34,330 nt of DNA from Sphaerochaetaceae bacterium (GTDB lineage: Bacteria > Spirochaetota > Spirochaetia > Sphaerochaetales > Sphaerochaetaceae): assembly GCA_028532765.1 (NCBI GenBank), contig JAQQAR010000057.1, positions 1 through 34,330 on the forward strand, in the 5' to 3' direction. A program made the position numbers and the translations under genes. Below are positions 14,351 to 34,330 of the stretch, one piece after another. The notes under the pieces are model-generated. The model did not search any database, was not told the DNA's origin, and saw only the letters and a program-made list of their open reading frames with translations. Numbering within the stretch: the stretch's first letter is position 1; each line of letters starts with the position of its first letter.

Positions 14351-14902
14351 ATGCAAAGCGAACCAACAACCAAGGAATTCTCCATCCTATCCTACATTGA
14401 GCAAAACTCAGATGCCACTCAACGAGAGTTATCTGAGCATGTTGGTGTGTCCTTGGGGATGATCAACATTTTGTTAAAGCGTTTGGTTAAGAAGGGCTTG
14501 GTAAAGATAGAGCGACTTCAACCCAACTCAGTAAAATACTTTCTCACTCCACAGGGTATTGCCAGTAAGTTAGAGAGGACTTATGGGTATATCGTGAGGA
14601 CGTATAGGGAGCTCGAGACATATAAAGAAAGAGTTGGCATGGTAGCTCAGCAGATTGCCAAGAAGCATACGGTAGAAACCGTATACTTCTTTGGTCCCAA
14701 CGATGAGTTTGCTGCCATGCTTTCTGCCTTTATCAGGCTGAATAGTAGCGAAGGTCCAGCAATCAAGATTGTTCATGAAGAGAAAGATCTTCTGGAGTAT
14801 TCGAAGAAAGTTCCCATTCTTATTTGGGACCATGAATACGCCGAAGCATTGGAAGGTTCTGGTTATTCGTGGATGAATATTATGCAATCGTTGGATGTCT
14901 AA
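14351..14902 (+). CDS. Winged-helix regulator of polysaccharide locus
   Basis: A 183-residue protein with an N-terminal MarR-like winged helix (residues about 8-75: FSILSYIEQNSDATQRELSE, MINILLKRLVKKGLVKIERL, wing NSVKYFLTPQG). A helical linker (YGYIVRTYRELETYKERVG) and a C-terminal alpha/beta region of unknown fold follow (VETVYFFGPNDEFAAML, VPILIWDHEYAEAL). Proteins of this type stand at the head of exopolysaccharide clusters in several bacteria, including those grouped as EPS-associated MarR-type regulators. No clear ribosome binding site precedes the ATG. It is the first gene of the polysaccharide region and probably controls it; what its C-terminal domain senses is unknown. Confidence 0.75.
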   Translation: MQSEPTTKEFSILSYIEQNSDATQRELSEHVGVSLGMINILLKRLVKKGLVKIERLQPNSVKYFLTPQGIASKLERTYGYIVRTYRELETYKERVGMVAQQIAKKHTVETVYFFGPNDEFAAMLSAFIRLNSSEGPAIKIVHEEKDLLEYSKKVPILIWDHEYAEALEGSGYSWMNIMQSLDV

Positions 14903-14930
14903 GGGGATATCGGTGCCAGGTTTCCTATAC

Positions 14931-14960
14931 CTTGCTCCTTCTTTAGCAAGTTTAATCATT
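14931..14960 (+). terminator. Weak terminator after winged-helix gene
   Basis: CTTGCT (14931-14936) and AGCAAG (14945-14950) form a 6-bp stem directly followed by TTTAATCATT. It is weak but rightly placed, 28 bases after the stop codon. Confidence 0.35.
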
Positions 14961-15555: not shown

Positions 15556-16428
15556 ATGTCTTTAAAGTTTGGGGATGAAAATAGAAAAGTAGTTTACAAA
15601 TACAGGAGCTTGGCTGACAAAAAATCCTTTGATAGGGTTGAAGATATTATTACTAGAGGAATGATATATTTTGCGCAGCCGAGTAGTTTTGCTCAAAATG
15701 ACCCTTTAGACACTGCTCCATCAATTGAGTTTAGAAAAGATACTACAATTAAGGATGTTCAAGAAACACTCCTAAGAATCAAGCCAACCGCGATGAATAC
15801 TCCTATTTCCAAAGGCAATGCCCAGATTGAATCTGTTATTGCACATTTAGAACAATTGCATAAAGAGGCTTCGCCCCAAGAAATATCTGATATGTTTTTT
15901 AAAATATCGTGTTTTACGACTGAGTATGACAACGAAAGAATGTGGGAAGTGTACGGGGATAAGCATCGTGGTATATGTATTGGATTTAAAGTGTTGATTT
16001 ATGGCAATTCATTATGTATACCATCCAATCTTTTAGGGACGTATAATAAGGAACATAATGGGTATCTGCCCTTAATTCATGTGGAATATTGCAATCAAGC
16101 TTTAGAACCGTGGCATTATTTCAAAGATCATACGAATCTAACAAAATTGCAGAAGTTTCTTACTACTAAGAGGACACAATATGCTTATGAATCTGAATAT
16201 CGATCGTTAATCAGTGCAGCAGATCCCTCTCAAGTCGAATTGGCTTCTTTAGAAATAATAGCTGAAGTAATTTTTGGCAAAGATGTTGCTGATTCCGATT
16301 TTATAAAGGTGATGGACTCTATAGGCAATCCCAAGGTGATGCTTTATAAAATGAGGCAGACAAAATACGGAAGACTTGAAAGAGTTAAAATTTCTTCAAT
16401 ACCCCAGAAAGTAAGAGATAGGAGTTAA
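15556..16428 (+). CDS. DUF2971 family protein
   Basis: A 290-residue protein with DUF2971 features: VYKYRSLADKKSF near the start, the motif GMIYFAQPSSFAQNDPLD (residues about 35-52), FFKISCFTTEYDNERMWEVYGDKHRGICIGF in the middle, and KRTQYAYESEYR near residue 216. The family is widespread, of unknown function, and frequent in accessory and defence regions. No membrane segment or signal is seen. The ribosome binding site is poor (AAAGG about 14 bases upstream). Its stop is 2 bases before the aminotransferase start, so it is the first gene of the polysaccharide operon, an unusual place for this family. Confidence 0.75.
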   Translation: MSLKFGDENRKVVYKYRSLADKKSFDRVEDIITRGMIYFAQPSSFAQNDPLDTAPSIEFRKDTTIKDVQETLLRIKPTAMNTPISKGNAQIESVIAHLEQLHKEASPQEISDMFFKISCFTTEYDNERMWEVYGDKHRGICIGFKVLIYGNSLCIPSNLLGTYNKEHNGYLPLIHVEYCNQALEPWHYFKDHTNLTKLQKFLTTKRTQYAYESEYRSLISAADPSQVELASLEIIAEVIFGKDVADSDFIKVMDSIGNPKVMLYKMRQTKYGRLERVKISSIPQKVRDRS

Positions 16429-18329: not shown

Positions 18330-18929
18330 ATGGAAATAATTAATACAACGAATACTCGCGATATCAGGGAAGTCGTAAAAATTCATTTGACTTCATTCCC
18401 TGGTTTCTTTCTTACTTTTCTAGGGAGAGGATTTCTCCGATACTTATATAAAGGCTTCATTCTGCATCCTAATTCTGGTATTCTTATAGCCAAAGATGAA
18501 ATGCGAATTATTGGATTTCTTGCTTATTCTACGGATCTTTCGGGATTTTACTCATTCTTGATCAAACGATATTTCTTTCCATTTGCATGGTATGGATTTC
18601 TTGGAGGTTTACGAAGTCCGAAGAGTCTAGTGAGAATTATCAGAGCCTTGAAGTATCCAAGTGAGGCCAAAACTGATGAGAAGTATGTGGAGATTAGTTC
18701 GATTGCAGTTGCCCCAACCGTGCAAACTAAGGGGATCGGGTCTGGTCTTATCAATCAAATTTGTGAGATGTTCAGAGACTCAGAATTTCAAGTAATTCGG
18801 CTAGAAACTGATGCCGATAATAACGATGATGTAAATGATTTCTATCAGAAGAATGGTTTTCAAGTAGAGAAAGTTTCTGAAACTCCTGAGGGGAGAAGGA
18901 TGAATCATTATGCAAAATTTTTATGGTAG
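18330..18929 (+). CDS. GNAT family acetyltransferase
   Basis: A 199-residue GNAT protein. The acetyl-CoA binding motif A is seen as ISSIAVAPTVQTKGIGSGLINQI (residues about 113-135), followed by RLETDADNNDDVNDFYQKNGF, which is the usual motif B region. The ATG follows the stop codon of the previous gene without a gap. From its position it may acetylate the amino sugar made by the aminotransferase, replacing the left-handed beta-helix acetyltransferase (PglD) of classic pathways. The acceptor is inferred from context only. Confidence 0.8.
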   Translation: MEIINTTNTRDIREVVKIHLTSFPGFFLTFLGRGFLRYLYKGFILHPNSGILIAKDEMRIIGFLAYSTDLSGFYSFLIKRYFFPFAWYGFLGGLRSPKSLVRIIRALKYPSEAKTDEKYVEISSIAVAPTVQTKGIGSGLINQICEMFRDSEFQVIRLETDADNNDDVNDFYQKNGFQVEKVSETPEGRRMNHYAKFLW

Positions 18930-18934
18930 AAATA

Positions 18935-20086
18935 ATGAATAAAATTCTTTTTTTACTTAATGAAAGCCCACCAGATAGAAACAAGTATCTTGCAGAAGCT
19001 CCAATTTTGGTTTCAAATTTTGTATATCCAAATTCTATGGTTCTCAGAGATATGGGAATTGAACAGTATATGGGGATTAGCCGAAAGTATGCTACTTCCA
19101 TAGAATGCACAAATGCACCAATTAAATTTCTGAATATACCAATATTCAGAAATATTTTTGATGTTAAAAATATCTTAATTGCTTATAAAATAATTAATAG
19201 ACACATCAAGGAATTACAAATCGAATATATTCATTGCAATACACCCATAGGTGGATTCTTAGGAAGAGTCTGTGGTAAGCGATGTAAAGTTAAAAAAGTA
19301 GTCTATACAGCACATGGGTTTCATTTCTATAAAGGCGCTCCGCTTATAAACTGGTTGGTATTCTATCCTATAGAGAGGTTTTTAGCGCGATGGACAGACG
19401 CCCTTCTTATAATGAACGAAGAGGATTTTCGGAGAGCTAAAAAGTTTAAGTTGCATAGAAGTGGAATGATTTATAAAGTACCAGGAGTCGGGATAGATTT
19501 AAAAAAAATTCAAGATGCTTCCATTCTTAATGATATCAAAGACGAATTAAAGATTGAAAATGAAAGTGTGCTATGTATATCAATGGGAGACTTGATAAAG
19601 AGAAAAAACTACCAAATTGCAATTATAGCTTTTAAGAAGCTACCCGATAATGTCCATTATTTAATTTGTGGCAAGGGTCCTGAGTTGAAAAATCTTCAAG
19701 AATTAGCTAAGTCACTGGGTATTCAAAATCGGATACATTTCTTGGGATTCCGAACTGATATAGTCAGTTTGCTGAAGCAATCAGATATATTTATTCTTTC
19801 CTCCTTACAAGAAGGGTTGCCACGATCTCTAATGGAAGCAATGGCATGTGGACTGCCTTGTGTTGTATCAAACATTCGTGGGAATGTTGATTTGATTGAG
19901 CATAATTTCAATGGCTACCTGTGTGATCCTAAGAAAGCAGATGATTATGCTAATGCTATTAGCATGTTGGTAAAAGATACAAATCGGCGAGATGCGATGG
20001 GTACCGAAAATAGCAAAAGAATTTTAAGATATGATGTTTCATCTGTTGTGCAAGAGCTAGGTGAGATATATAAGTGTTTGCAATAG
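18935..20086 (+). CDS. GT4 family glycosyltransferase
   Basis: A cytoplasmic or membrane-associated GT-B enzyme of about 383 residues that should add a sugar to the lipid-linked repeat unit. The C-terminal donor domain is clear: SMGDLIKRKNYQIAI, YLICGKGPEL, LGIQNRIHFLGF and the EX7E motif in SSLQEGLPRSLMEAMACGLP. The N-terminal acceptor domain has VYTAHGFHFYKG. An alternative start at 18923 would overlap the acetyltransferase gene by 7 bases; neither has a good ribosome binding site, and 18935 gives the usual beta-strand start. Sugar specificity unknown. Confidence 0.88.
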   Translation: MNKILFLLNESPPDRNKYLAEAPILVSNFVYPNSMVLRDMGIEQYMGISRKYATSIECTNAPIKFLNIPIFRNIFDVKNILIAYKIINRHIKELQIEYIHCNTPIGGFLGRVCGKRCKVKKVVYTAHGFHFYKGAPLINWLVFYPIERFLARWTDALLIMNEEDFRRAKKFKLHRSGMIYKVPGVGIDLKKIQDASILNDIKDELKIENESVLCISMGDLIKRKNYQIAIIAFKKLPDNVHYLICGKGPELKNLQELAKSLGIQNRIHFLGFRTDIVSLLKQSDIFILSSLQEGLPRSLMEAMACGLPCVVSNIRGNVDLIEHNFNGYLCDPKKADDYANAISMLVKDTNRRDAMGTENSKRILRYDVSSVVQELGEIYKCLQ

Positions 20087-20128: not shown

Positions 20129-21073
20129 ATGTACATTGAATCAAAAGACATAAATTCAATCAGTTGGAGTGCTGAGATTGATCTTCTCGCTGATTTAGAA
20201 AAGCTTGCTGAAGCAAGGCTTAATGAATTCGGGATTACAAGAGATATTAGTAAAGAGGCATCTGTCCAATTTGTAAGTTACTCCTTTCGAGAAATCTCAT
20301 CCAACCCCAAGATGCTATTTCAATCGAAGGAATTTACCTGTCCGTCAGGATATGAGAATGCATTCAATACTGTCTGCAGAAAAATTGCGGAAGGTGAAGA
20401 TTTGTCTCCTTTTTTTTCACGAAGATATGATGATCCTTCATTTTCAGATTATCTTTTTAATGATTGGCATATTTATCATTTTCATTTATCTGATCAGTAT
20501 GACTCAGATGGAAAAGCCAGAAGAAGTGGCTATCTTCTTTTTGCGTATATTAATTCTGATGCAGCCTATCTTATTCAAATTTATCCTCATAGTGAAAGTG
20601 ATGTTTTTGCAAAAACTGATATGTTGAGAATAATTAGTTGTAACTGGCCAAATTTGATTTCACGATATGAATTTTCTGGGAAAGCAATTCATACTTTTTC
20701 AGATTCTGCTATTAATGAAATGAGAAAGCATAATATTAATGTGATTACAGAAATCAATCCTGGTAAAGGGCTCCTGCCGATTGGAGGGGGCTCTTCTACT
20801 GATGGATCGCCTACTGAAGCAATTACATACTTATTGAAATTGCAGCGTAAGTTAGCTAATTGCCAAGAGTTGATTATCAATAATACTGAGGAGATACTTA
20901 AGTCTTTGATTGAGCATAAAAGTGGGTCTGTAAATTATGATCTTACTTACGAGTTAATAGGAATTGATAGTCTAGATAAAAAGTTTATCGTGCATGAAAG
21001 GAGTAATTCTATTCAGATAATTATCGAATGGGATAACTTAGATTCACTTCTTATTGAGCCAATTGCGGACTAA
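20129..21073 (+). CDS. Uncharacterised partner of TrlF ATPase
   Basis: A 314-residue protein of no family I can name. Its most striking stretch is DWHIYHFHLS at about residues 112-121, followed by RRSGYLLFAYINSDAAYLIQIYPH. A histidine-rich WxIxHxHL signature followed by an LLFAY strand recurs, as I recall, in uncharacterised accessory-region proteins, and may be a catalytic or metal site. A glycine-rich run LPIGGGSSTDGSP lies near residue 212. No signal peptide or membrane segment is seen. It lies 35 bases before the PHP-ATPase gene, in the same orientation, and shares no obvious role with the sugar genes on either side. I infer it to be part of a two-gene defence-like unit. Confidence 0.6.
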   Translation: MYIESKDINSISWSAEIDLLADLEKLAEARLNEFGITRDISKEASVQFVSYSFREISSNPKMLFQSKEFTCPSGYENAFNTVCRKIAEGEDLSPFFSRRYDDPSFSDYLFNDWHIYHFHLSDQYDSDGKARRSGYLLFAYINSDAAYLIQIYPHSESDVFAKTDMLRIISCNWPNLISRYEFSGKAIHTFSDSAINEMRKHNINVITEINPGKGLLPIGGGSSTDGSPTEAITYLLKLQRKLANCQELIINNTEEILKSLIEHKSGSVNYDLTYELIGIDSLDKKFIVHERSNSIQIIIEWDNLDSLLIEPIAD

Positions 21074-21108
21074 CCATTTCCGTTTAAGCTATTTCAAAGG
21101 AGTTTCCA

Positions 21109-23916
21109 GTGTATCAAGAATATCGAGGTTCAGAATGGAGGAGATGGGAATTGCATCTACACACTCCTCACACGAAGAAAGAAGATAAGTATCTTGGAAA
21201 AACTCCAGAAGAGAAATGGGATAATTTCTATCAGACAATACAAGAGTATGTTGGAGATGGCACAGACCCTACAAAAGCAATCTGTGCTATCGCAATTACG
21301 GACTATCTCTCAATTGATAATTATAAGTTAGTTGAAAAAGAGAAACGGCTTCCTGAATGCGTTAAGCTAGTGCTCCCTAATGTAGAGTTAAGAATCCAGC
21401 CAATCTCAAGCAAGGCACCAATTAATCTGCATTGCATATTTGCCCCTACAATAGTGGACCAATTACAGGATCGATTTTTTTCAAGACTCAAGTTTGAATG
21501 GAACGGCAATGTATATAGTGCTACAAGGTCAGAATTGATTCGACTTGGGCGTTCATATAAATTAGACACCACTCTTGATGAAGACACTGCTTATCGTGAA
21601 GGATTATCGCAGTATGTGATATCACTCGACTCACTTACCAAGATTTTTAAGGACAATAAAGATCTTCGAGATAACACTATTCTTGTAGTATCAAATAGTA
21701 GTGGTGATGGAGCTTCTGGATTGGCTCATCATTATAGCTATTTTGAAGGAGATTGCTCACAATTAGATGCAACCAGACAACAAATCTATCAGGTTTGTGA
21801 TATGATTTTTTCTGGAAATCCATCTGATTTTGAATACTTCTTAGGAATGAAGAGTGATGATGAAAAAACTGTCAAAAAGAAATTGAGGACATTAAAGCCT
21901 TGCATACATGGCTGTGATGCACATACTAATTCTAAGGTTTTTGAACCTGATCAAAAACGATATTGTTGGATTAAGGCTGATCCCACATTTGAAGGATTAA
22001 AGCAAGTTCTCTATGAACCAAAAGAAAGAGTTCGAATTAGTTCAGCATGTCCCGATTTGAAACAGAGTTATCATGTTATTGATAAAGTAGTGATTGAAGG
22101 CAATGAACTCTTTTCTGATACACCCATTTATCTAAACGACAAGCTTACCTGTATTATTGGTGGGAAATCAACTGGTAAATCATTACTGCTTCACAATATT
22201 GCTCTTGCTGTAGATGCGAAACAAGTGGAAGAGAAGACTGAAAAGGCCACAACTAATGTAAAGCACGTTCCTGGACTGACCGTATATTGGAAAGATGGGG
22301 AATGCAGTGAAGATACATCAAATTCTCGAAAAATTGTGTATATACCTCAGACATACTTGAATAGATTAAGCGATCAGGAAGAAGAGACTACAGAAATAGA
22401 TGCTATTGTTCAAGAAATTGTCATGCAGAAAGATGCAATAGCTACACTCTTTACAAAGAAAACAGAAAAACTTAAGCAACTTCGTCAGACAGTGCTGAAC
22501 GCAATTACTGAGTTAATACATTTCTATGAAGAGTATAAAGAGATAAACGCTGCCATTAAAGAGATAGGTGATTCTAAAGGTATCAACACTGAAATCGGAA
22601 GTTTGACTCAGCGTTTTGAGATCCTTTCTTCTGATTCGGAAATAACTGACGATGTAATTCTTGAATACCAGAAACATGTTGAACAAAAGCAAACCCATCA
22701 AGAACTCCAGAAAATACTTCAACAAGATAAAGAGGCTATTCAAGCAATCGAGACCGTTGTAAAAGGAATTAGGTTTCCTGTTCTAGGTGATTCTGAACTA
22801 ACCAAGCAGTTAAACGAATCTGTCTTGCAAGTTATAGATGTTGCTAATAAAGAATGGTCTAAACAGAAAGAACCTCTCTTAAGCTCAATAACACAGAGGC
22901 AAGATGAAGTATCTAAGAGATTGGTAGAATGTGACGAAAAATTAATTCAGCTGAAACCAATTGTTGAAAGTAATCATGAAATTGGAGTGATTTCTAAACG
23001 AATATTAGCTGAAAAAGAGAAGCTTGTAAAAATAGAAGGGCTCATAAAAAAACTAAGTGAAGCAAAAGACTCTTTCCAACATAATCGATCCATTTTGGAG
23101 AATGTCTTTAATGATTATCACCAAGTCTACTCCGATTTTGTTCGAGAAGTAAACGAACTTATTGAAACCAATGACGAAGATTTGGTATTCCTTGTTGAAT
23201 CAGTTTTTCGAAAGAGTCAGTTCTCAAAAAAAATTCTTGAGTTGTTTGATAACCGAAGCATAAATAGATTCCAACCCTTCTCTCTCTCAGATATCAAAGA
23301 AGAGAATTTTCTCAATCAAAAGAATATCTGTGAGTTGATAAAGGCAATTGTTGATCTATCATTACCTATTAAAGCAGGGTATACGAAAGAGTCGATTCTA
23401 AGAGACCTATTCAATGACTGGTACAACATTCACTATATTGTAAAAATGGGGAATGATGGTATCGAAGATATGTCTCCAGGAAAGAAGGCTTTGGTTCTTC
23501 TTAAATTGCTGGTTAGCCTTGCTGAAAGTCAATGTCCGATTCTTATCGATCAGCCAGAAGATGATTTAGATAATCGATCGATTTATGATGAGTTGATTCA
23601 ATTCATAAAGACCAAGAAGATTGATCGTCAGATTATCGTGGTTACTCATAATGCTAACATTGTTCTAGGTGCAGATGCCGAATTGGTTATTGTTGCAAAC
23701 CAAGATGGAAACAGTACCCCTAATAATTCACACAGGTTTGAGTATCGAGGTGGTGCTATTGAAAACAATGAGCCAGTTCGCGATGCTAACCAAGTGATTA
23801 TGAAGGGAGTTCTAAATCAGAAGGGCATTCCGTCTCATATCTGCGAAATACTCGAAGGTGGAGAACGAGCATTTGATCTTCGGAGAAACAAGTATAGGGC
23901 GATTATGAGGTATTAA
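21109..23916 (+). CDS. TrlF family PHP-SMC-like ATPase
   Basis: A 935-residue protein. The N-terminal PHP-type phosphoesterase domain has ELHLHTPHT (residues about 14-22), AIAITDYLS and later CIHGCDAHT with metal-binding histidines and aspartates. An SMC/RecN-like ATPase follows: Walker A GGKSTGKSLLLH near residues 348-359, a long coiled coil (about 440-700), a signature-like MSPGKKALVLLKLL near 787, Walker B CPILIDQPEDDLDN near 808-821, and an H-loop VVTHNANIV near 844. GTG start with AAAGGAG 6 bases upstream. PHP-SMC fusions include the reported single-gene phage defence protein Ppl, which has a similar architecture. It closes its unit with an intrinsic terminator and interrupts the polysaccharide genes. 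An anti-phage nuclease or phosphatase is the best inference. Confidence 0.85.
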   Translation: MYQEYRGSEWRRWELHLHTPHTKKEDKYLGKTPEEKWDNFYQTIQEYVGDGTDPTKAICAIAITDYLSIDNYKLVEKEKRLPECVKLVLPNVELRIQPISSKAPINLHCIFAPTIVDQLQDRFFSRLKFEWNGNVYSATRSELIRLGRSYKLDTTLDEDTAYREGLSQYVISLDSLTKIFKDNKDLRDNTILVVSNSSGDGASGLAHHYSYFEGDCSQLDATRQQIYQVCDMIFSGNPSDFEYFLGMKSDDEKTVKKKLRTLKPCIHGCDAHTNSKVFEPDQKRYCWIKADPTFEGLKQVLYEPKERVRISSACPDLKQSYHVIDKVVIEGNELFSDTPIYLNDKLTCIIGGKSTGKSLLLHNIALAVDAKQVEEKTEKATTNVKHVPGLTVYWKDGECSEDTSNSRKIVYIPQTYLNRLSDQEEETTEIDAIVQEIVMQKDAIATLFTKKTEKLKQLRQTVLNAITELIHFYEEYKEINAAIKEIGDSKGINTEIGSLTQRFEILSSDSEITDDVILEYQKHVEQKQTHQELQKILQQDKEAIQAIETVVKGIRFPVLGDSELTKQLNESVLQVIDVANKEWSKQKEPLLSSITQRQDEVSKRLVECDEKLIQLKPIVESNHEIGVISKRILAEKEKLVKIEGLIKKLSEAKDSFQHNRSILENVFNDYHQVYSDFVREVNELIETNDEDLVFLVESVFRKSQFSKKILELFDNRSINRFQPFSLSDIKEENFLNQKNICELIKAIVDLSLPIKAGYTKESILRDLFNDWYNIHYIVKMGNDGIEDMSPGKKALVLLKLLVSLAESQCPILIDQPEDDLDNRSIYDELIQFIKTKKIDRQIIVVTHNANIVLGADAELVIVANQDGNSTPNNSHRFEYRGGAIENNEPVRDANQVIMKGVLNQKGIPSHICEILEGGERAFDLRRNKYRAIMRY

Positions 23917-23947
23917 AGAACAATCCTAGTTGATTGCCAGTATGTTT

Positions 23948-23981
23948 AATACAGTAGTAATAAATTAAGCACTGTATTTTT
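23948..23981 (+). terminator. Intrinsic terminator after TrlF gene
   Basis: AATACAGT (23948-23955) and ACTGTATT (23971-23978) form an 8-bp stem with a 15-base AT-rich loop, and a run of five T (23977-23981) follows. It lies 32 bases after the stop codon and would end the two-gene unit before the next glycosyltransferase. Confidence 0.65.
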
Positions 23982-24018
23982 ATAAAGAGAGATTTTATGA
24001 CAAAGGGATTTGGATTCT

Positions 24019-25083
24019 GTGGTAGAAAGTAATGATAAGAAAATTGCTTTTTTTCTGGGTAGTCTTGCACGAGGTGGAGCTGAACGAGTAATAAGTAATT
24101 TATCTCAAGACTACGCCAGAAATGGATGGATAACTGAAATATGCCTGCTTCTTTCATATAAAATACAGTATCCTTTGGATGAGTCTACCGATGTAATTGA
24201 TTTTTCTGGAAGCACTACTTCTAGAACTCTACGTATCCCTTATTGGTTAAAAGCAATAAGACAATTCGTAAAAGTAGAGAAACCTGATTATATTATTGCG
24301 TTTACTGCACGAATCAATTTACTTGTAATTTTGGCTTGCATTGGGCTAGATGCAAGAATCATTATTTCTGAAAGAAATGACCCTAGATTTGATGGTAGAG
24401 GACGACTTGTAGATTTTCTAACTAAGTTACTGTATCCGAAAGCTCAATGCCTGGTCTTTCAAACAAAGAAAGCTCAAGAATATTTTAGTGAGAGGATAAA
24501 GAATAAAAGTTGTATTATTCCTAATCCAATATATGTAAGTTGCTTAGCTAGTCCAGTTAAAAAAAAGAAAATAGTGACTATTGGGCGATTAACTCAGCAA
24601 AAAAACCAAAAAATGCTAATCGCCGCATTTGCGAAGATTTTGCCGGCTTATAAAGACTATCAACTCGAAATATTTGGTGATGGTGAGCTTAGAAATGAGT
24701 TAATTGCGTATTCAAAAGAGCTTGGTATTCAGAATAGCGTTATGTTCAATGGCGTTGTCCAAAATATACATGAACGAATATCTGATGCTGAAATCTTTGT
24801 TTTATCATCTGACTATGAAGGTTTGTCAAATGCTTTATTAGAAGCCATGATGATGGGGCTTGCATGTATTTCAACAAGATGTGCAGGAGCTGATGAGTAT
24901 ATCACCGATGGTGAAAATGGGTTATTAATTCCTATTAAAGATGAAGAGGCATTAATCATGGCTTTGAAGAAGCTATTAGATAATACAGATTTTCGTAATC
25001 AAATTGAAAAGAATGCAGCAAACTCAGTAAGTCATCTAGGAGTAAATAATATCTATAAGCATTGGTATGAAATAACATGTTGA
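24019..25083 (+). CDS. GT4 family glycosyltransferase
   Basis: A GT-B glycosyltransferase of about 354 residues. FFLGSLARGGAERVISNL near the N-terminus is a typical GT4 start. The C-terminal domain shows TIGRLTQQKNQKMLIAAF, LEIFGDGEL, GIQNSVMFNGVV and the EX7E motif in SSDYEGLSNALLEAMMMGLA. The start is uncertain: GTG 24019 has AAAGGGA some 10 bases before it, while TTG 24010 lies too close to the same element and the ATG at 23998 is out of frame. It follows the TrlF terminator, so it may need its own promoter in the short interval 23917-24018. Sugar specificity unknown. Confidence 0.88.
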   Translation: MVESNDKKIAFFLGSLARGGAERVISNLSQDYARNGWITEICLLLSYKIQYPLDESTDVIDFSGSTTSRTLRIPYWLKAIRQFVKVEKPDYIIAFTARINLLVILACIGLDARIIISERNDPRFDGRGRLVDFLTKLLYPKAQCLVFQTKKAQEYFSERIKNKSCIIPNPIYVSCLASPVKKKKIVTIGRLTQQKNQKMLIAAFAKILPAYKDYQLEIFGDGELRNELIAYSKELGIQNSVMFNGVVQNIHERISDAEIFVLSSDYEGLSNALLEAMMMGLACISTRCAGADEYITDGENGLLIPIKDEEALIMALKKLLDNTDFRNQIEKNAANSVSHLGVNNIYKHWYEITC

Positions 25084-34151: not shown

Positions 34152-34211
34152 CAGAGTATATCGGTACCAGGAAGAATTGTCACATTTTCCACAAAATGAA
34201 TAGTAAATTAT

Positions 34212-34300
34212 CATGATCAGCCAACTAAAAAGTTGCCACAGGTGAAGAGCCCAGGCGAAGGGCTTTCAGCTCACTTTGGCTGGTCATGGATAATTTTTTT
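34212..34300 (+). terminator. Long imperfect palindrome with T-tract
   Basis: CATGATCAGCCAA (34212-34224) pairs with TTGGCTGGTCATG (34276-34288) at 12 of 13 positions, the exception being a G-U pair. Inside lie a CAACT/AGTTG hairpin (34222-34235, sharing bases with the outer arm) and AGCCC pairing with GGGCT. Seven T (34294-34300) follow. It is well placed to end the polysaccharide-phosphonate operon. Its complexity also fits a small structured RNA or the end of a mobile element. Confidence 0.5.
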
Positions 34301-34330
34301 GAACTGAACCGTGTCCCTCATGCTATGGGG

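Follow-up and report, generated by a model that had tools for sequence, protein, structure and literature searches.

A PD-T4-7 family gene and a TrlF-family ATPase gene as probable anti-phage cargo in a surface-polysaccharide locus of a Sphaerochaetaceae bacterium

Two reading frames between glycosyltransferase genes

The window, by which we mean the whole stretch of 34,330 nucleotides analysed here (contig JAQQAR010000057.1 of assembly GCA_028532765.1, forward strand), comes from a Sphaerochaetaceae bacterium and contains, within a polysaccharide locus, two open reading frames of 314 and 935 codons that lie on one strand between two genes for family-4 glycosyltransferases (Table 1). An earlier note, made from the sequence alone, had described this arrangement, and both frames and their positions were borne out. 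The four genes are separated, in order, by 42, 35 and 93 bp, and the two central ones are probably co-transcribed with each other and with the polysaccharide operon. The intrinsic terminator that had been placed behind the second gene did not hold up, as the hairpin at that position is weak, is absent from the listing of the terminator scan and does not stand out in stability from shuffled versions. No flanking repeats bounding the two-gene segment were found in a repeat search. Both the G+C content (0.34-0.36) and the GC3 of the two genes match those of the neighbouring glycosyltransferase genes, so that composition does not set them apart; AT-richness extends over the whole segment between ~15 and 34 kb, unlike the core genes at the left, which have a G+C content of 0.48-0.49.

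Table 1. Features of the two-gene segment and its flanks (window coordinates)
Feature	Position	Strand	Basis
Upstream flanking glycosyltransferase (GT4)	18923..20086	+	Pfam Glycos_transf_1, 3.4e-44
PD-T4-7 family protein, 314 aa, putative RNase	20129..21073	+	PADLOC PDLC04066, conserved residues, model, structural matches
Family signature DxLxxDWxIxHxHL, residues 107-120	20447..20488	+	Alignment of 56 sequences
Shine-Dalgarno-like AAAGGAG, 5' of the TrlF GTG	21096..21102	+	Read from sequence
TrlF-family PHP-SMC ATPase, 935 aa, GTG start	21109..23916	+	NCBIfam NF045780; PHP fold of residues 1-325
TrlF Walker A, IIGGKSTGKS	22153..22182	+	G351, G356 and K357 invariant in alignment
TrlF Walker B / D-loop, IDQPEDDLDN	23545..23574	+	D814, Q815, P816, E817, D818, L820 and D821 invariant
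AT-rich hairpin and U-run, weak, long loop	23948..23981	+	z-score -0.8 to -0.9 against shuffles
Downstream flanking glycosyltransferase (GT4)	24010..25083	+	Pfam Glycos_transf_1, 7.2e-38

Families and predicted folds of the two proteins

The 314-residue protein had been called uncharacterised, a description that no longer applies: it matched the PADLOC profiles for PD-T4-7 with E-values of 9.6e-41 and 6.2e-29 over residues 16-275, while giving no significant match in Pfam or NCBIfam, a weak match to a tail-sheath profile and nothing meaningful in sequence searches of the PDB. On these profile matches it is a divergent member of the PD-T4-7 family, a single-gene abortive-infection system, and the DWHIYHFHL signature singled out in the earlier note is indeed present and corresponds to the family motif. 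G89, D107, H117, H119 and L120 never vary among 56 aligned PD-T4-7 sequences, and variation is rare at D112 (54 of 56), W113 (53 of 56), I115, H154, W173, P174, R199 and G221. The invariant or near-invariant standing of the extended signature, H154 and R199 was seen across alignments of 39 to 56 sequences, and the window protein keeps all of these positions except G114 and G121, where it has histidine and serine, respectively; its identity to the PD-T4-7 copies found does not exceed about 30%.

PD-T4-7 emerged from a functional selection in E. coli directed against T4 and was classed with toxin-like abortive-infection systems, its protein being described as 'RelE plus phage-sheath region' (Vassallo et al. 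2022, PMC9519451). A later survey, which counts Leptospira among the carriers, treats it as a system of one gene and places it in 0.68% of complete genomes (PMC11201134); it protects E. coli on its own (PMC9519451, PMC11201134). The window protein resembles the founding member (PMC9519451) in its DWxIxHxHL signature, H154, likely RelE-like fold, length of ~300 residues and single-gene make-up, and differs from the known system in sitting within a polysaccharide locus.

A structural model of the protein, generated with AlphaFold2 from a 39-sequence alignment (pLDDT 91.6, pTM 0.85), was compared with known structures. In the VIA comparison, residues ~59-179 matched toxins of the RelE superfamily with Z-scores of 4-6.4, and nearly all of the top 38 rows were HigB, YafQ, RelE, YoeB, ParE or the C-terminal domain of Cami1; RelE, HigB and YafQ chains headed the list with Z-scores of 5-6.4, a modest match. 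The RelE match was not significant with Foldseek (E > 0.3), nor was an hhalign comparison with YafQ, and we therefore grade the relationship of this model-based core to the RelE superfamily as likely rather than proven; a search of viral structures returned no match. The ribosome-dependent mRNA interferases YafQ, HigB and RelE probably share the fold of residues 59-179, whereas PD-T4-7 has no significant sequence similarity to them, carries additional N- and C-terminal domains and has no adjoining antitoxin gene. The HxxLF end of YafQ may be echoed in PD-T4-7 by a histidine followed by a later aromatic residue, and the catalytic H87 and F91 of YafQ presumably correspond to H154 and F160. The RelE-like core and the weak tail-sheath match agree with the two regions noted in the founding study (PMC9519451).

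As the alignment of distant relatives held no searchable stretch, further PD-T4-7 copies were sought with a signature pattern. A degenerate pattern for DWGIxHxHLG identified 51 genome loci and three viral-contig loci, and 12 copies were found on plasmids; every pattern locus and plasmid copy matched the PD-T4-7 profile. In the phylum Spirochaetota the gene occurs in 8 of 393 genomes, counting the window's own, with three of the phylum hits weak in the profile check and one copy on a Leptospiraceae contig (L102). A peptide-pattern scan of genome contigs with the 314-residue protein itself gave no match, as did a search of the phage collection. Prophage carriage is suggested by two copies that agree in length and in profile score, one from an IMG/VR viral contig (L147:5424-6440) and one from a Lampropedia contig (L125:325-1341).

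The 935-residue protein had been assigned to the TrlF PHP-SMC ATPases, and this assignment was upheld: it scored 538.2 bits against NCBIfam NF045780 (cut-off 350) over model positions 1-944 of 944 and, judged by this profile, is a full-length TrlF-family ATPase. Modelled alone, residues 1-325 adopted a PHP fold (pLDDT 86; Foldseek E 1.5e-6), and the top 27 rows of the VIA comparison were PHP structures with Z-scores from 13.6 to 9.4, including PHP phosphoesterases, EndoQ, RNase AM and the PHP domain of DNA polymerase III. The ABC motifs are intact, the residues of the Walker A, signature, Walker B, D-loop and His-switch elements being invariant in the alignment. The window protein shares with the family the N-terminal PHP fold, the SMC-type ATPase and a C-terminal EGGxxAFxxR motif, and departs from typical TrlF in belonging to a sub-clade that has ITDY for ITDH and lacks the AHxD histidine. 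The closest copies found are encoded on viral contigs L179 and L184; compared over the best segment or the N-terminus, they show 40-47% identity to it. Literature searches on TrlF returned no paper evidently about the protein.

The canonical set of PHP histidines (HxH, TDH, AH, DxH) is not complete in the window protein. H16xH18, E93, H108 and D270xH272 are retained, and TDY stands in place of TDH and an SN motif in place of AHxD; because two usual histidines are thus replaced, the nuclease activity of the protein is uncertain. The altered site could be taken to mean that the two genes are remnants or inactive cargo, with intact frames and no present activity, and the apparently truncated Abi genes elsewhere in the window would fit such a history. 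We consider this improbable, as both frames are full length and keep the invariant residues of their families, and the same TDY/SN sub-type (encoded at window 21109-22083) is conserved in the TrlF copies of L086 and L179-L182, which makes the change a property of the lineage rather than decay. The sub-clade may instead have a different metal site or a PHP domain that is not a nuclease.

TrlF-like PHP-SMC proteins invite comparison with Ppl, a single-gene PHP-SMC anti-phage nuclease described as a 3'-5' single-strand exonuclease that NTPs inhibit (PMC12904381). The layout of a PHP domain joined to an SMC-like ATPase is the same in both, but the window protein scored 85.7 bits against the NCBIfam Ppl profile, which has a cut-off of 1000, with the best stretch confined to the ATPase part, and is not classed as Ppl by this profile. 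By analogy, it may act on phage DNA as Ppl does, although the altered site leaves this uncertain.

Recurrence of the pair

The earlier note had proposed that the two genes form a defence-like unit and, as a pair, a system different from those known. To count how often the families occur together, the PD-T4-7 and TrlF profiles were run across all collected loci of either family. TrlF was present in none of 66 other distinct PD-T4-7 loci, among which the 3' flank extends for 1 kb or more in 52 and the 5' flank in 57. Conversely, PD-T4-7 was missing from all 25 other distinct TrlF loci of the phylum, 20 of them with 1 kb or more of upstream sequence, and from the vicinity of all 35 full-length TrlF genes collected from viral contigs. 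The 51-locus scan relied on DWGIxHxHLG, a pattern from which the DWHIYHFHLS of the window protein departs, and these counts could therefore represent a paired sub-branch too thinly, the closest PD-T4-7 copy being only about 30% identical. Elsewhere, the neighbours of plasmid-borne PD-T4-7 genes are ABC-3C and DEAD-box helicase, RES, AbiEii or SIR2 genes, and on a Klebsiella plasmid TrlF is flanked by a GajAB-like pair on one side and an Abi gene on the other, an integrase gene lying close by.

As the pairing does not recur in any of these loci, PD-T4-7 and TrlF do not constitute a new two-gene system; what survives of the proposal is that each gene, taken separately, is of a defence type. A true two-gene system, in which TrlF would sense phage DNA or nucleotide depletion and license or restrain the RelE-like PD-T4-7, could draw on the adjacency of two defence-type families on one strand with a 35-bp gap and a ribosome site of TrlF's own, and probable co-transcription leaves room for cooperation in the window strain. 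Set against the counts above and the activity of PD-T4-7 alone in E. coli (PMC9519451, PMC11201134), we regard it as very unlikely. A further reading, to which we give only a slender chance, is that in this lineage a chance pairing has developed into a two-component defence operon, with the PHP-altered TrlF sensing for, or regulating, the neighbouring RelE-like PD-T4-7 effector. The adjacency is one of chance or of cargo accumulation between two families that were both already known.

Exchange of the locus and the place of the two genes

A genome of the same species (G020) lacks both PD-T4-7 and TrlF. It retains window 14400-14939 at the left end of the region (88%) and 34155-34330 at the right (100%), with other genes between them. 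A module of DegT, sugar transferase and acetyltransferase genes is common to the window and G018 and, in part, to G001 and G011, and occurs there without the two genes; homologues of the GT2-Wzy-ATP-grasp cluster in G001 and G023 are likewise unaccompanied by either gene. The absence from sister strains that the earlier note had proposed to look for was seen in G020, but a precise empty site was not demonstrable, since the locus has been replaced as a whole between strains; relatives of the downstream glycosyltransferase in the sister genomes are at most 39% identical. A ~40-bp repeat, TGTGGAAAATGTGACAATTCTTCCTGGTACCGAT, and its complement (window 34156-34196; L169) occur in dozens of clustered copies in sister genomes and probably represent insertion-sequence ends or another repeat family.

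Other defence-type genes were observed in the window. A DUF2971 gene, the PADLOC candidate PDC-S31, lies at 15556-16428 between a conserved regulator and the DegT aminotransferase, a position occupied in G018 by an OLD/GajA-like ATPase (L164:5931-7637), making it a second defence-cargo site of the polysaccharide locus. At 50-985 and 1382-2750 lie a gene for an AbiLi/AriA-like ATPase and a pair of AbiEi and AbiEii genes; the AbiLi match covers only part of its profile and that of AbiEii the first 160 of 290 positions, and both therefore look truncated.

A role of PD-T4-7 and TrlF in joining or regulating the synthesis of a surface polymer would suit two genes that lie inside the operon with the low G+C and GC3 of the adjacent glycosyltransferases. 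The homologous sugar clusters in G001 and G023 do without both, and relatives of the two genes reside on plasmids and viral contigs, mostly away from sugar genes, which leaves such a role extremely unlikely. Given the replacement of the locus between strains, the lack of both genes in G020 and the other defence-type genes in the locus, PD-T4-7 and TrlF are best read as cargo gained and lost with polysaccharide type.

Taken together, our analysis indicates that the window very probably holds two anti-phage genes that work independently of each other as single-gene systems and form cargo of a strain-swapped surface-polysaccharide locus, probably being expressed from the polysaccharide operon transcript. 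As two stand-alone genes, they would act in different ways. PD-T4-7 would place a RelE-superfamily RNase domain (~59-179), with its near-invariant H117xH119 and H154, between N- and C-terminal domains that may hold it off until infection, whereupon mRNA cleavage by the RNase, probably at the ribosome, would bring about growth arrest and abortive infection. TrlF, in which a PHP phosphoesterase domain is joined to an ATPase of the SMC/ABC type, would probably serve as a Ppl-like ATP- and DNA-responsive nuclease on phage DNA.

This removes a false lead, the supposed new two-gene system, and identifies its 'unknown' half as PD-T4-7. The altered PHP site of the TrlF sub-clade adds a minor point. 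Defence genes occur inside swappable surface-polysaccharide loci, and thus, judging from the few genomes compared, one exchange could alter both the phage receptor and the intracellular defence of the cell.
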